A stretch of DNA of 22,228 nucleotides. Source: a virus. Of this stretch, positions 9,851-21,732 are shown in pieces. Position numbers and translations under genes: made by a program. Each line of letters begins with the position of its first letter. Position 1 is the first letter of the stretch. The notes beneath the pieces are model-generated. The model ran no database searches, had not been told where the DNA came from, and saw only the letters and a list, made by a program, of their open reading frames with translations. The DNA lies in IMG/VR virus record IMGVR_UViG_3300042294_001510, positions 1 to 22,228 of that record, one strand, 5' to 3'.

Positions 9851-11350
9851 ATGGTTGATAAGTTCGGCTCCGATCAGCAGCAGCTCGCCAACTCGGGTGG
9901 CAGCGTTATCTCGCAAGACAACGCCGTGCTCATCAACGGCGACAGCGACGGTGAAGATGCGCTGCTCTTTGGGCCTGCCGCGCTTCGTGAGATTCAGACG
10001 GGCGTTGCCAACGGCGACTTTTCAATTCCACCATCCGATGCTGAAGGAATCGTCACGGCTGACAACGACCTGCCCTATTGGACGTTCACGGACGTCAACA
10101 GCGCGGGAGCGATCACCTGCTCAATCGTGACTGATGCTTCCGCTGCGTCGGGCACGTCGCTGCGCTTCAGCATTGCAGCAGGTACGGGAAACAGCAAGAG
10201 CGTGACCCTGCGGCGTTTCATCCCAGTCGCATCAACGCGCAACCAAGCCTTCGCGTACCAGCCCGAAGTCAACACCTTCGGCGCAACCAACACGGCGAAC
10301 TCCACCATCCGCATGCAGTCGCAGTTCTACGAAGCCGACCAGACAACCACAACGGGCAGCGTTATTGACACTGGCGTTGTGACCTTTGCAACACTCGGCA
10401 CTGGAACGAACGCAATTGTCGGGACGCTGACGACTGCGAACGCCGCGCCGTCAGATGCAGCCTTCTGCCTGATCACCATCACGGTGGCAACGGCTGCGTC
10501 TGGCACCGTTGTGGCTTCTACGGTTGACATCCCCGAAGTGCGCCTCATCCGTGGAGATCAGACAAACATCTTCGCGGAGTATCGAGACCCAGCAACGTAT
10601 GCGCCGACCTATGTGCGCCAGCGATTCGGTGAGCTGCAAATCTCTCCGAACGCCGCCTCAGGCAACACTCGCCTTGGTGGGAACCTGAGCGTTGACGGTG
10701 GCACCATTGACACTGACGTCAACCTGACGCTTGACGTGCCGAGCGGCAGCGTGATCATCAAGGGCGGTGATAACGCTCCGCGTGTGCAGTTTGTAAACGC
10801 ATCCGGCACCAATCTCGGCGGACTTCGTATGGGTACCACCAACAACTTTGCGTTTCTCAATGGCACCAGTACCAATGACTACGCCTATGTGCTGGCTGAA
10901 CGCTTCTATCCAATGGACGGCACATCAGGCAGCCGATACATCTACGACGATGGGCTTAGAACAGCCACCAGCGGCGGATTTGTTATTGGCTCCTTCACCT
11001 CAACGGCTACAGCAGCAAATGTGAACACAACATCAAACACCAATGGTTTGCTCCGCATTGTTTCGTCATCGCGTCGCTGGAAAGAAAACATTGAAGACGC
11101 CGACGAAGAAACACTTGCAGCCGCAAAACGATTGAAGGCTCGGCACTTCAACAGTCTGCACCCATCTGATAACAACGCGCGACTTCTTGGGATGATTGCC
11201 GAAGAAGTAGAAGAGTCTGGCCTTCATTGTGCAGTCGAGTATGACGACGAAGGTTTGCCGCTTGCAATCAACTGGTCAGCAATCACCGCCGCGCTACTGG
11301 TGCGATTAGAAGACGCCGAGCGCCGCATTGCCGCGCTGGAGGCACGATGA
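9851..11350 (+). CDS. Tail fibre/spike with C-terminal S74 self-cleaving chaperone (499 aa)
   Basis: Residues 1-400 are repetitive, Ser/Thr/Gly/Asn-rich and beta-rich, as in trimeric fibres and receptor-binding proteins; part of this (LSVDGGTIDTDVNLTLDVPS) resembles a beta-helix. The last 95 residues match the intramolecular chaperone of endosialidases (peptidase S74): SSSRRWKENIEDA with Ser405-407 and Lys411, then FNSL, LLGMIAEEVEESGL, INWSAITAALLVRLEDAE and a C-terminal coiled coil. In the family this domain drives trimer folding and then cuts itself off at the Ser using the Ser-Lys pair. The fibre probably binds the host surface. The stop overlaps the next ATG (ATGA). Confidence 0.85.
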   Translation: MVDKFGSDQQQLANSGGSVISQDNAVLINGDSDGEDALLFGPAALREIQTGVANGDFSIPPSDAEGIVTADNDLPYWTFTDVNSAGAITCSIVTDASAASGTSLRFSIAAGTGNSKSVTLRRFIPVASTRNQAFAYQPEVNTFGATNTANSTIRMQSQFYEADQTTTTGSVIDTGVVTFATLGTGTNAIVGTLTTANAAPSDAAFCLITITVATAASGTVVASTVDIPEVRLIRGDQTNIFAEYRDPATYAPTYVRQRFGELQISPNAASGNTRLGGNLSVDGGTIDTDVNLTLDVPSGSVIIKGGDNAPRVQFVNASGTNLGGLRMGTTNNFAFLNGTSTNDYAYVLAERFYPMDGTSGSRYIYDDGLRTATSGGFVIGSFTSTATAANVNTTSNTNGLLRIVSSSRRWKENIEDADEETLAAAKRLKARHFNSLHPSDNNARLLGMIAEEVEESGLHCAVEYDDEGLPLAINWSAITAALLVRLEDAERRIAALEAR

Positions 11351-11532
11351 CGCGCAGCCAAGTTGACGCCATCATCGAACGGCTAGACGCGCAGAGCGCG
11401 AAGATTGACCGCCTGCAGTCAGAGATTGACCAGATGAAGGGGGGGCTCACGGTGCTGAAGGCGATCGGGGCCTTCTTGGGAGTTGGGGGTATTGGCGCGC
11501 TGCTGGCGTGGCTTCAACAGCAGGGCAAGTAG
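11347..11532 (+). CDS. XhlA-like coiled-coil / membrane protein, holin-associated (61 aa)
   Basis: The first half is a regular heptad coiled coil ([29 protein letters not shown]). The second half is one hydrophobic helix ([20 protein letters not shown]) followed by a short polar tail. This is the layout of the XhlA/hemolysin family, which sits next to holins and endolysins of Gram-positive phages and helps lysis. The start overlaps the fibre gene by 4 bases (ATGA). The stop TAG overlaps the GTG of the next gene by one base. No catalytic residues are expected in this family. Confidence 0.72.
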
Positions 11533-12560
11533 TGCGCCGCGTACTGATCCCGCTGCTGGCTGCCTTCGTGCTGCTGCGTGCAGTGCCCGTCATTGCATCC
11601 GACTGGACTGCCGACATGACCTTCAATGGCAGCGTGCAGCTCGTTGACGGGGGCTTCGTCATCACTGGCCCCGACGCTGGCGTGGGCTCCAACACCGTCA
11701 CCTACTCCACCACGGCTGACACCGCTGGCACCATCGCGTTCTTGTGGGCGTACAGCACCATTGACGGCGCATGGTTCGACCGCCCGCAGTTCGTCATCAA
11801 CGGCGTCACCAGTGACCTGATGCAGCAAGGGCAGCAGGGCAACGGCAGCATCCAGTTCGACGTCATGCCGGGGGACGCCTACGGCTTCAGAGTGTGGGCG
11901 CTCGACACCTGCTGCGGCGCTGGTGTGTTGACCATCACTGACCCCGACTTCGTGCCAGCATCACCAGAGCCAAGCCCGCTCCCATCCGTGGAGCCAAGCA
12001 TTGAGGTGCCAAGTGTTGAACCGTCCCCGCTCCCGAGCCCTGACCCGACTGCCACACCCGAGCCGTCGCCCGAGCCGACACCATCACCTGAGCCTTCGCC
12101 AACTCCTACGGCTGAACCTAGCCCTGCTCCTACTCCTAGCCCTGACCCTACTGCTACGCCAACCGTAGAGCCGAGCCCTACGGCGACGCCTACGCCGACC
12201 CCTACACCTACCCCAGAATCCCCTTCACCTAGCCCCAGCGTGGCGGAAACACCCCTCCCAGAGCCTTCTGAGGAACCCTCACCAGTGCCTTCTCCTGAGC
12301 CTACGCCCGAGCCCACGGATGAGCCGCTCGTGATTGACCCCGGCGCTGCAGTTGGCGCAGCCGTTGAAGCCGTCGGAGAAGCGGCTGCGTTCGTTGCCAA
12401 TCTCGGACACGACTTGACCCCTGAAGAAAAGAAGCAGGCAGCGGCTACAATCATCCCCGCAGTGATCATCACGCAGCTCGCGCAGGCAGCCGTTGCGGCA
12501 GCCAGTGCAGCGGCGGCTGGTGCTGCGTCATCGGGAGGGTCACGAAAGGGCAAGCAGTGA
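11532..12560 (+). CDS. Exported protein with Pro-rich linker and C-terminal membrane segment (342 aa)
   Basis: GTG at 11532 (TAGTG overlap) is chosen because it gives a clean signal peptide, [21 protein letters not shown], cut after Ala22 before Ser-Asp-Trp. Residues 24-141 look like a beta-sandwich ([40 protein letters not shown], then CC at 127-128) similar in rhythm to a domain found in exported bacterial proteins. Residues 142-265 are a long Pro/Ser/Thr/Glu linker. Residues 266-301 are helical, 303-332 form a hydrophobic Ala/Ile-rich segment, and the end is basic (SRKGKQ). This predicts an outside domain tethered by a wall-spanning linker to the cell membrane. It sits inside the lysis cassette. 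I know no family with this full layout; function could be lysis control, envelope disruption or blocking of other phages. No lipobox Cys is present. Confidence 0.72.
11955..12326 (+). repeat. Degenerate Pro-rich coding repeat
   Basis: About 372 bases within the exported-protein gene encode imperfect short units such as EPSP, PTPTP and PSPDPTATP. The units use many different synonymous codons (CCG, CCC, CCT, CCA; AGC, TCG, TCA, TCT), so the repeat is old or held at protein level and is not a fresh DNA slippage product. Confidence 0.8.
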
Positions 12561-12736
12561 GACTCCTGAAAGACATCGCACTCGACATCGCGGCAAGTTC
12601 TTGGACGTGGCTCGGCATGATGATCGCGTGGATCGTGTTGCCAGACGGCAGCACCCGCGACTTCGTGGGCGCAGCGATTCTAGGGCTGCTCATCTTGTGG
12701 GCAGCGACAGGGCCCCTACGCTGGGGCGGGGAGTAA
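12557..12736 (+). CDS. Two-helix small membrane protein, holin candidate (59 aa)
   Basis: GTG at 12557 overlaps the previous TGA by the GTGA pattern, and the frame runs to TAA at 12734-12736. The protein has a short basic/amphipathic start ([15 protein letters not shown]), a hydrophobic helix ([13 protein letters not shown]), a polar turn (PDGSTRD), a second hydrophobic helix ([15 protein letters not shown]) and a short tail. Size, two helices and position between an XhlA-like gene and the endolysin make it a good holin candidate. Small size alone cannot prove this; it could be a membrane helper of the exported protein. It has no other overlapping gene. Confidence 0.65.
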
Positions 12737-12738
12737 AC

Positions 12739-12993
12739 ATGACGGCGGCTGATCACATCGAAGAGATTCACGAGCAGGGCTGGACGAAGATCGTCACGGC
12801 TCCGGGCGAGTGGGTTGCACTGGTGCCCAACGACAACAACAGCGCCTACGGCGGCACGCTCTGGAAGCGCGCCGAAGACGGCAACGACTACGCCGAAGGC
12901 GCCACTGAGGGCTTCCCAGTCAGCGCCGCACTCGACCACGAAGCCGCTGGGCGAGCCGTCGCAGTGCTCATCAAGAAAGAACTCGGCGCGTGA
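12739..12993 (+). CDS. Small acidic protein in lysis cassette, unknown (84 aa)
   Basis: ATG at 12739 has a GGGGAG ribosome site 5 bases upstream; the frame is open further upstream but that would overlap the membrane-protein gene fully. The protein is acidic, with aromatic residues (GWTKIVTAPGEWVALV, GGTLWKRAEDGNDYAEGATE) and a C-terminal helix (AGRAVAVLIKKELGA). No signal peptide, membrane segment or cysteine is present. It overlaps the endolysin start by 4 bases (GTGA), so the two are probably made together. No function is recognised; it could be a lysin partner or inhibitor. Confidence 0.7.
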   Translation: MTAADHIEEIHEQGWTKIVTAPGEWVALVPNDNNSAYGGTLWKRAEDGNDYAEGATEGFPVSAALDHEAAGRAVAVLIKKELGA

Positions 12994-14171
12994 AGTACCG
13001 CGTCAAGAGCCAACTCTACTCTGACGCTGAAGCCCAACTAAAGGGCGCCAAGCAGATTCTGGATGACTGCACATGGTCATCCTGCGCCGCAGCCGTGAGC
13101 TGGGCGAGCGGGTATGAGGTCGACTACAGCGCCGCCGACGGCGTCGCAGCAATGAAGAAAGTCACGGGGCGCAAGGACGTGCAGGGCAAGTCCGACAACG
13201 GCGGCAGTCTCGCCGAAGCCGTCAAGGTCATCGCGCACCTAGGCGGCAAGGCCCGCTACGCCAAGAGCTGGGAAGATGCCGTCACCGCTGCCAAGGCTGG
13301 CGCCGCCCTCATGGTGTGGGTGCAGCAGCCGATCGGCTACCCGCCCGAGATTCGCATCAGCAAGTGGCACGATCGCTGGGTGAAGTGGTGGACGAAGAAC
13401 GCCCCCGAGAAGATCAAGGCGGGATACGGTCACATGACGTCTGCAGGCTACGGCGAAGTTGACGGTGTTGAAACTTTCCAATGGTGCTGCCCAACTCGGG
13501 ATGAGCGTGACCCAGCCGAGAAGTACGCCGTCCCAGTGACGGAGTCCCAACTGCACACCATCGTCAAGTCGAAGATGCGGGCGCGCAAGTTGACCGCCGA
13601 CTTCAAGGCCCTTCTCATCGTCACCTACCCGAAGAAGGCAGCAGCGCCGGCTCCTGCGCCCGTCGCAGTCCCTGAGCCAGTTGCAGCACCCGTCAACGCA
13701 GGGGCGCGAGTAGCAGTGGCAGCGGCGCCAGAAGTGGCACCTGAGCCAACACGTGGGGTGCAACTCCCCACCGCGTCCACCACTCCCGAGCCCAAGAAGG
13801 TCAGCGCCGTGGATGCGCAGCTGGCGGCTCTCGGCAAGGTAGACTTCGGAGCAGTGGCTGGGAGGGCGCTCAATGCTGCGAAAGGCGCAGCGGCTGCGGC
13901 TGCCAAGGTCAAAGGGGTACCAGCCAAGATGATCGCCTTCTTGAAATACTTCAACGAGAGCACGGGTATCGTCTCCGCTCTGACAGAGTTCGTGCGCACC
14001 TTCGTCACGGTGAGCATCAGCGTCGCACTTGGGTTGGGAATCCCCCTTCTCGACATCAGCGGGGGAGACTTCCGAACGGTGCTGAGTGCGGGCTTGGCGA
14101 GCGGGTTGGGCGTGCTCGTGAAGTGGCTTGATCCTAAGCAATCCGACTTCGGAATCAAGCAAAAAAACTAA
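12990..14171 (+). CDS. Endolysin: cysteine peptidase-like domain fused to holin-like C-terminus (393 aa)
   Basis: GTG at 12990. Residues 1-215 resemble papain-like C39-type peptidase domains of actinophage lysins: QILDDCTWSSCAAAVSW with Cys27 or Cys32 as nucleophile and GYGHMTSAGYGEVDG with His148 as partner. Residues 216-268 are an Ala/Pro/Val-rich linker. Residues 270-315 are helical and Ala-rich. Residues about 334-354 and 360-380 form two hydrophobic segments (FVRTFVTVSISVALGLGIPL; FRTVLSAGLASGLGVLVKWL) of the kind seen in actinophage holins, where 'GDwRtvlsaal.agl.a..kWl' is typical. The protein should cut peptide bonds in the wall; the C-terminus could place it in the membrane. No classical wall-binding domain is seen. 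A different role for the N-terminal domain, such as tail-borne peptidase, is less likely. Confidence 0.72.
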   Translation: MKYRVKSQLYSDAEAQLKGAKQILDDCTWSSCAAAVSWASGYEVDYSAADGVAAMKKVTGRKDVQGKSDNGGSLAEAVKVIAHLGGKARYAKSWEDAVTAAKAGAALMVWVQQPIGYPPEIRISKWHDRWVKWWTKNAPEKIKAGYGHMTSAGYGEVDGVETFQWCCPTRDERDPAEKYAVPVTESQLHTIVKSKMRARKLTADFKALLIVTYPKKAAAPAPAPVAVPEPVAAPVNAGARVAVAAAPEVAPEPTRGVQLPTASTTPEPKKVSAVDAQLAALGKVDFGAVAGRALNAAKGAAAAAAKVKGVPAKMIAFLKYFNESTGIVSALTEFVRTFVTVSISVALGLGIPLLDISGGDFRTVLSAGLASGLGVLVKWLDPKQSDFGIKQKN

Positions 14172-20900: not shown

Positions 20901-21280
20901 GCCACATGAGTGACGCTGACATTGACCTGAAGAACGCAGCCCGCAGCCGCATGGGGAAAAACAATCGCAACCGTGGCAACAGTCTGGAGCGCCGACTGGC
21001 TGCTGAACTCACTGAGGCTGGACTGGCTGGCGAGAGGGTTGGGCAGTACGGCGGCAAGACTGATGTTCGCGCACTGGGGCTGATCATCAGCGCCAAGAAG
21101 GGCGGCGCCTACTCGGAGCGATTCGATAAGTGGCTCAACGAGTTGACGCCGAAGGCTGACGAAGTCGCCGCGCTGGTGGTGGAAGACGCCCCCGGCTCAG
21201 GCATCAAGGCCCGTCGCATGGTCGTGATCCACTGGGAGACACTGGTGCAGCTGCTACAGCAGCGGGAGGAGAAGGCATGA
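20897..21280 (+). CDS. Resolvase-like / PD-(D/E)XK-type protein (127 aa)
   Basis: ATG at 20897 (ATGA overlap); a second ATG at 20906 is possible. The basic start and NRGNSLERRLAAELTEAGL resemble the first helix of Hjc-like resolvases ('G...E..l...l...G'), with Glu31. GGKTDVRALG (Asp56) and LIISAKKGG (Lys67) match the order D...xxK, and VVIHWETLVQLL is a typical end. The Glu expected in the ExK motif is Ser65 here, so activity is uncertain. A role in branched-DNA resolution would suit the recombination genes upstream. Confidence 0.6.
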   Translation: MSHMSDADIDLKNAARSRMGKNNRNRGNSLERRLAAELTEAGLAGERVGQYGGKTDVRALGLIISAKKGGAYSERFDKWLNELTPKADEVAALVVEDAPGSGIKARRMVVIHWETLVQLLQQREEKA

Positions 21281-21732
21281 AGATCGCACTCGCACTGGCG
21301 CTGGTATTCGCGCCGCTCACAAATCCGCAACCACTTGGCGAGCCGCCGATCAACTACGCCATGGGCGTACTGGCAGATCAGCCAGCCGTACCAGAGGGGT
21401 ACTTCGTGGGGACTGCGACGTGGTATGACGCAGCACGTGGCTCGCACTCCAGCTGGTACACCCGCGCAGGGATCACCCTATACGGCGCGATCGGCGCTGA
21501 CGTCCGAGCCTACAAGCAGCACCGCTGGCGCACGAGTTGGGACGTCAGGATCACCAGCCTGCGCACTGGCAAGAGCGTCATCGTGCAGGTGGTGGACGTC
21601 TGCACGTGCTACGGCATCCGCAAAGATCCCAACGATCAGCGACTCATCGACCTATCGCCGCAGACATGGGCAGCCCTTGGCGTACCGCTCTCGCGTGGCG
21701 TGATGGCGATCACCCTAGAGGTGCTGCCATGA
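21277..21732 (+). CDS. Exported RlpA-like double-psi beta-barrel protein (151 aa)
   Basis: ATG at 21277 (ATGA overlap) with GGAGGAG upstream. A short signal peptide (MKIALALALVFAPLTNPQ) is followed by a spacer and, from about residue 43, a double-psi beta-barrel: GTATWYDAARG, GADVRAYKQHRW, WDVRITSLRTGKSVIVQVVD, and DLSPQTWAALGVPLSRGVMA. Asp107 in VVDVCTCYG stands where RlpA-like enzymes have the Asp of 'vnDrGp'; the conserved His of RlpA is not clearly present. RlpA relatives bind or cut glycan strands of peptidoglycan. Cys109 and Cys111 are unusual in the motif. It is far from the main lysis cassette, so it may remodel the wall or alter the cell surface. Confidence 0.75.
   Translation: MKIALALALVFAPLTNPQPLGEPPINYAMGVLADQPAVPEGYFVGTATWYDAARGSHSSWYTRAGITLYGAIGADVRAYKQHRWRTSWDVRITSLRTGKSVIVQVVDVCTCYGIRKDPNDQRLIDLSPQTWAALGVPLSRGVMAITLEVLP

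Follow-up and report, generated by a model that had tools for sequence, protein, structure and literature searches.

The open reading frame (ORF) at positions 12990-14171 (+ strand) of the IMG/VR virus record IMGVR_UViG_3300042294_001510 is probably a lysin-holin gene of a tailed phage, giving rise to a tethered lysin and, by internal initiation, to a free holin; the two would assemble jointly, and the enzyme would reach the cell wall through the resulting lesion. The whole stretch of DNA analyzed here, 22,228 nucleotides (positions 1 to 22,228 of the record), is hereafter called the window. The ORF starts with GTG and encodes 393 amino acids (aa) in a single open frame. Judging from the sequence, its two products are most likely the full-length lysin-holin and a free holin that begins at the ATG at position 13929.

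The N-terminal part of the protein (residues 1-213, positions 12990-13628, + strand) is a predicted lysin of the papain/C39-like cysteine peptidase type, recognized from a structure model and from the invariant residues Gln8, Cys27 and His148. The linker that follows (residues 214-313, positions 13629-13928, +) consists of an Ala/Pro/Val-rich first part modeled with low confidence and a Lys-rich helical second part, and is 73-100 residues long among the relatives. A Shine-Dalgarno (SD)-like sequence, AAAGGGG (positions 13911-13917, +, computed energy -8.4 kcal/mol), is located 5' of an in-frame ATG at residue 314, which opens the holin-like module (positions 13929-14171, +), a would-be 80-aa two-helix membrane protein that matches the separate holin ORF of those relatives in which the two parts are split. 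By hydrophobicity, the membrane helices are TFVTVSISVALGLGIPLL (residues 337-354, positions 13998-14051, +) and TVLSAGLASGLGVLVKWL (residues 363-380, positions 14076-14129, +); their mean Kyte-Doolittle hydrophobicity is about 2.0 across the family, and the 8-residue loop that joins them, DISGGDFR, is acidic, with a mean net charge of about -1. All strongly hydrophobic segments of the 393-aa protein are C-terminal: there is no signal sequence ahead of the peptidase domain and no N-terminal signal-anchor helix of the kind that defines signal-arrest-release (SAR) endolysins, and no wall-binding domain was found in the protein. The first-pass annotation of this DNA had described an ORF with a peptidase-like N-terminus, an Ala/Pro linker, two hydrophobic segments and the motif 'GGDFRTVLSAGLASGLG', and all of these are present as described.

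The structure of the peptidase domain, predicted from 24 diverse sequences, is of high quality (predicted local distance difference test, pLDDT, 90.6; predicted template modeling score, pTM, 0.90), and the peptidase fold anticipated by the first-pass annotation is borne out by this prediction. The best structural match is the pseudomurein endoisopeptidase PeiR (Z 13.7, root-mean-square deviation 3.2, 150 aligned residues), which we take to belong to family C71, followed by the C39-like peptidase 3erv (Z 12.2) and the PCAT1/ComA peptidase domains (Z about 11). The listed matches are papain-like, the fold expected of C39/C71 cysteine peptidases; two AlphaFold models agree on this, and the full-length model likewise ranks PeiR first. 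At the sequence level, PeiR and the window peptidase do not match, and the peptidase yields no match to PF13529 (Peptidase_C39_2) at E 10. Gln8, Cys27 and His148 are each invariant in all 124 aligned sequences, including the Cys and His expected to be catalytic. The first-pass annotation had also proposed Cys32 for mutation alongside Cys27 and His148; its numbering is accurate for all three residues, but Cys32 is not a general active-site residue. The nucleophile motif reads DCTWSSC in the fused enzymes and DCGPSS in the split ones; Cys32 is confined to the fused clade, and the split relatives have Thr, Ala, Met or Val at this position, so that a catalytic role of Cys32 was rejected.

With the whole protein as query, 161 and 187 relatives were obtained from viral contigs, with the C-terminal part 359, and with a split-type peptidase 86, so that the fusion, for which the first-pass annotation suggested a search in other phages, recurs far beyond chance. 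The best 80 relatives of each search were followed up; the fetched loci comprise 112 fused, 110 split and 5 other cases (one partner out of reach or missing, or the record of the phage DSL-LC01), and removal of duplicates leaves 67 distinct fused sequences and 66 distinct split sequence pairs. In the split relatives, the stand-alone peptidase ORF is mostly 202-211 aa long (up to 258). The next ORF, some 10-25 bases 3' of it, encodes the hairpin in roughly 80-125 residues and has a start codon and a ribosome-binding sequence of its own. The 66 distinct relatives that encode peptidase and hairpin side by side as separate genes indicate that the hairpin of the fused gene descends from a stand-alone holin-like gene. 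Five split peptidases (L218, L219, L220, L223 and L224) carry an Ala/Pro-rich tail, which terminates immediately ahead of the holin gene in a CxxCG motif resembling a zinc knuckle; such a tail may represent an intermediate stage in the origin of the linker of the fused gene. In the peptidase tree, the fused forms occupy one side of a single branch with support 100/100, which corresponds to one change, whereas the short hairpin tree forces at least 2 fused/split changes (4 in the most parsimonious reconstruction), a pattern that mobility of hairpin modules among phages would produce. The cultured phages searched contain no match to the fused protein or to the peptidase at the E-values tried. 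A scan of a genome collection identifies one relative, L090 (RFQY01000166.1, 68% identity), a fused gene on a 6-kb contig of a metagenome-assembled genome labelled Rhodobacteraceae; this is probably a misbinned phage contig.

The fused genes retain a potential translation start at the position where the separate holin genes begin, a feature that the first-pass annotation overlooked. Each of the 67 fused genes has an in-frame ATG or GTG 15-23 residues ahead of the hairpin motif; in genes with Val in place of the aligned Met, the codon is GTG, and a start codon is kept across 18 different seven-residue contexts. The SD energy at this site is -6 kcal/mol or stronger in 66 of the 67 genes, compared with 3.5% of stretches of that size in other parts of these genes. 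Its mean strength is -8.2 (35 distinct sites), next to -7.6 at the actual starts of the split holins, -7.2 at those of the fused genes, -8.3 at those of the split peptidases, and -2.8 at random positions of the window. This pattern suggests that the gene may make a free holin besides the tethered lysin.

The DNA on the two sides of the internal start appears to have had partly different histories. Between the loci L020 and L028, identity is about 100% in the peptidase and linker, 58-77% in the stretch that begins at about the internal start and ends with the stop codon, and 90-98% beyond it. Similarly, the window and L001 are 90-98% identical over the larger part of the peptidase and linker and 87-97% identical past the stop codon, with 70-78% identity in the interval between this codon and position +5 of the internal start. 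Comparison with L003 reveals a divergent patch inside the peptidase, so that divergence also occurs away from this junction. Collectively, these alignments are suggestive of the exchange of holin modules between phages as units, with a junction near the internal start, although this junction is not unique.

With regard to the hairpin itself, the structure library labels the stand-alone proteins 'Holin'. Their layout, with two membrane helices joined by a short charged hinge and encoded near a lysin gene, resembles that of the r1t-type holins (PF16945) of Lactococcus, Gordonia, Mycobacterium and Streptomyces phages, which are small two-helix proteins with a short acidic hinge, often encoded beside the lysin gene; the resemblance is one of layout only. 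The hairpin has no match to the PF16945 profile at E 10 in five records, and an hhalign comparison of the hairpin family with a purpose-built set of nine r1t-type holins gives a probability under 1%. Formal membership in the r1t family was not supported, since neither Pfam nor profile-profile comparison points to common descent. Thus, of the 'actinophage holin type' proposed by the first-pass annotation, the layout stands, but the formal family assignment is not supported; the holin reading itself is backed by the stand-alone hairpin gene in 66 relatives. The sole relative of the hairpin in the cultured phages searched, detected only weakly at first, is the 64-aa hypothetical protein WJZ48444.1 of the Actinomycetia phage DSL-LC01 from lake water; the link is firm because the bridging locus L226 joins the hairpin family to this protein with a profile-profile probability of 97% (E 5.5e-11). 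WJZ48444.1 is encoded about 1.4 kb upstream of the annotated endolysin of DSL-LC01. It differs from the hairpin of the window in that it is stand-alone, and DSL-LC01 has no match to the peptidase family at E 1.

These features favor the following mechanism. The N-terminal cysteine peptidase would cleave the cell wall at peptide or isopeptide bonds. Until lysis, the full-length protein would wait at the inner face of the membrane, held by the C-terminal hairpin; the positive C-terminal tail of the fused forms and the acidic loop weakly suggest a topology with both ends inside, and this topology, together with the lack of a signal sequence ahead of the peptidase, favors an inner location of the lysin. 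The full-length protein and the free holin would then assemble together, and once the holin patch opens, the flexible linker of roughly 100 residues would allow the tethered peptidase, positioned at the rim of the lesion, to reach the wall, so that a wall-binding domain would not be needed. More tentatively, the gene could be viewed as a one-gene lysis device, in which a single frame encodes the tethered lysin and the free holin, the long form may restrain the short one and set the time of lysis, and modules are swapped near the internal start.

Several observations weigh against the lysin-holin with a free holin product. When the seven codons that precede the internal start are shuffled synonymously, the average SD strength is -7.4, compared with -8.2 for the actual sites (median rank 0.39); because the shuffles score nearly as strong, most of the SD signal follows from the Lys-rich protein sequence, and the internal SD could be a by-product of this conserved segment. 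Either the Lys-rich sequence is kept because it encodes a ribosome-binding site, or the resemblance to an SD sequence is incidental. Furthermore, the presumed third catalytic position, 167, assigned by spacing rather than from coordinates, is Asp in C39/C71 enzymes but Cys in 123 of the 124 aligned sequences, so that the Asp or Asn that follows the catalytic His in those peptidases is missing there. The most divergent peptidase, L226:5001-5561, has Asp-Pro at this position where all others have Cys-Pro, and there is an apparent Asp-to-Cys change outside L226. Given that the Cys and His are kept but the Asp of the triad is replaced by Cys167, peptidase activity is likely but not certain. The full protein and 26 relatives lack significant matches in Pfam, PHROGs and PDB sequence searches, and although no other candidate is apparent, a lysin of an uncharacterized family may be present; in addition, the window is incomplete. 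Finally, the working holin could be encoded by a second two-helix ORF, at positions 12557-12736. Under the corresponding explanation, which we consider rather unlikely, the hairpin would be a mere anchor of a self-delivering enzyme, the internal start would be unused, and this 59-aa protein would be the holin. The wide spread of the 59-aa family at fused and split loci fits this scenario, as does the poor separation of the internal SD from coding constraint in the shuffles, and M4Lys, an endolysin with the same arrangement of an N-terminal enzyme and a C-terminal two-helix domain, is reported to lyse without a holin (PMC8943055). However, the hairpin is a complete stand-alone gene in the split relatives, the start codon is retained in 67 of 67 fused genes despite the differing protein context, and the module swaps have a junction near this codon.

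Other explanations retain the internal start or the protease but assign different roles to them. The internal start, if used, would give two in-frame products that differ only at the N-terminus, and dual starts are a known holin device, exemplified by lambda S, where the longer of the S107/S105 products slows assembly. By analogy, the full-length protein could be an antiholin as well as a lysin, its bulky N-terminal domain slowing the assembly of the free holin and setting the time of lysis; this appears improbable, as the lambda extension consists of two residues, whereas here it would be a whole domain. C39-like peptidases often cleave leader peptides, and the presence of the PCAT1/ComA C39 domains among the next structural matches is compatible with a membrane-anchored protease that processes proteins for another late function rather than a lysin. 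This possibility is, however, improbable: the top match is PeiR, a wall-cutting virus enzyme; the gene lies after the tail-fiber gene, beside holin-like genes; the split relatives keep the lysin-then-holin order of Gordonia phages; and no other common lysin family (NlpC/P60, Amidase_2, CHAP or M23) was detected in the nine records tested. The window derives from a single contig, so a sequencing frameshift or an assembly error that joined two genes had to be considered, but this is extremely improbable and was rejected: the 67 distinct fused sequences come from many contigs and have a linker that is absent from most split forms, and their peptidases all fall to one side of a single, fully supported branch.

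The lysin-holin gene belongs to a conserved neighborhood. The 59-aa protein (positions 12557-12736, +), with two hydrophobic stretches, is a candidate second holin or antiholin, and its family is conserved with both forms of the lysin, being present at 61 of the 68 fused loci and at 51 of the 59 split ones; this ORF is missing from the 60-aa ORF list. Upstream, a conserved 350-aa protein (positions 11508-12560, +) with a signal-peptide-like start, a long Pro/Thr/Ser/Glu-rich spacer and a hydrophobic C-terminal segment could span the wall in a spanin-like or anchoring role. It is preceded by a conserved 61-aa protein (positions 11347-11532, +) with a heptad-like N-terminus and one membrane helix, which resembles in layout a small protein from the lysis region of Pontimonas phage phiPsal1. 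The cassette of these three upstream proteins is common to most fused and many split loci. The tail-fiber-like protein (positions 9851-11350, +) has a Peptidase_S74 intramolecular chaperone domain at its end. Well away from the lysis cassette, a double-psi beta-barrel (DPBB, RlpA/expansin-like) protein with a signal-peptide-like start is encoded at positions 21277-21732 (+), and this domain is found in 5 of 9 related records. In the head maturation protease region (positions 528-2024, +), a preceding domain in the same frame matches a polynucleotide kinase family. The capsid protein is closest to that of a Pontimonas phage, and a downstream nuclease has its nearest counterparts in DSL-LC01 and a Streptomyces phage, which makes an actinobacterium the best guess for the host; we infer that this is probably a tailed phage of an aquatic actinobacterium.

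Because sequence searches of Pfam, PHROGs and PDB attach no label to the peptidase family, many environmental phages that carry it probably have no annotated lysin. If the proposed function is correct, a fused gene with a holin start inside would make a compact lysis cassette and offer a naturally occurring template in which to study the coupling between the amounts of holin and lysin. Each part of this arrangement has a precedent, but no precedent found unites the parts in this order; a partial literature search, which is not proof of absence, found no lysin with a membrane tail that sister phages encode as a separate holin gene and that retains its start codon. PeiR (PDB 8z4h/8z4n) is a virus-encoded enzyme that cuts the wall, as the predicted peptidase would, but the two share 13% identity, PeiR acts on a methanogen wall, and the window protein has the Asp-to-Cys replacement at the presumed third active-site position. 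In known two-polypeptide endolysins, the short isoform is the wall-binding region and thus a part of the endolysin, whereas here it would be the membrane hairpin. Endolysin genes with internal starts that yield two polypeptides each are described as frequent in phages of Gram-positive hosts (PMC9430671). The fused genes share such an internal start by sequence, with weak support from the synonymous-codon control.

A natural translational holin-endolysin fusion, TpeE of Clostridium sporogenes (WP_163247266.1), is known from bacterial genomes; its holin is N-terminal and consists of one helix and an amphipathic helix, so that the order is opposite to that in the window (PMC9527704). In F1 mycobacteriophages, the two-helix protein is not the main trigger of lysis (PMC13056207), so that more than one membrane protein is a candidate trigger here. 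A parallel in layout is found in the endolysins of the Enc34, Siskin and M4Lys type, in which, as in the window protein, an N-terminal enzyme is followed by a linker and a C-terminal two-helix membrane domain, with no wall-binding domain. Their enzyme is all-helical and distantly lysozyme-like (PHA02564), and their hosts are Gram-negative, whereas the window domain is mixed alpha/beta and papain-like; the sections consulted on these endolysins describe neither a stand-alone membrane part nor an internal start (PMC8943055). The Enc34 and M4Lys endolysins raise the question of how a C-terminally membrane-anchored enzyme gets to the wall, and the phages studied here, in which one pair of proteins occurs naturally both split and fused, provide matched pairs with which it can be addressed.
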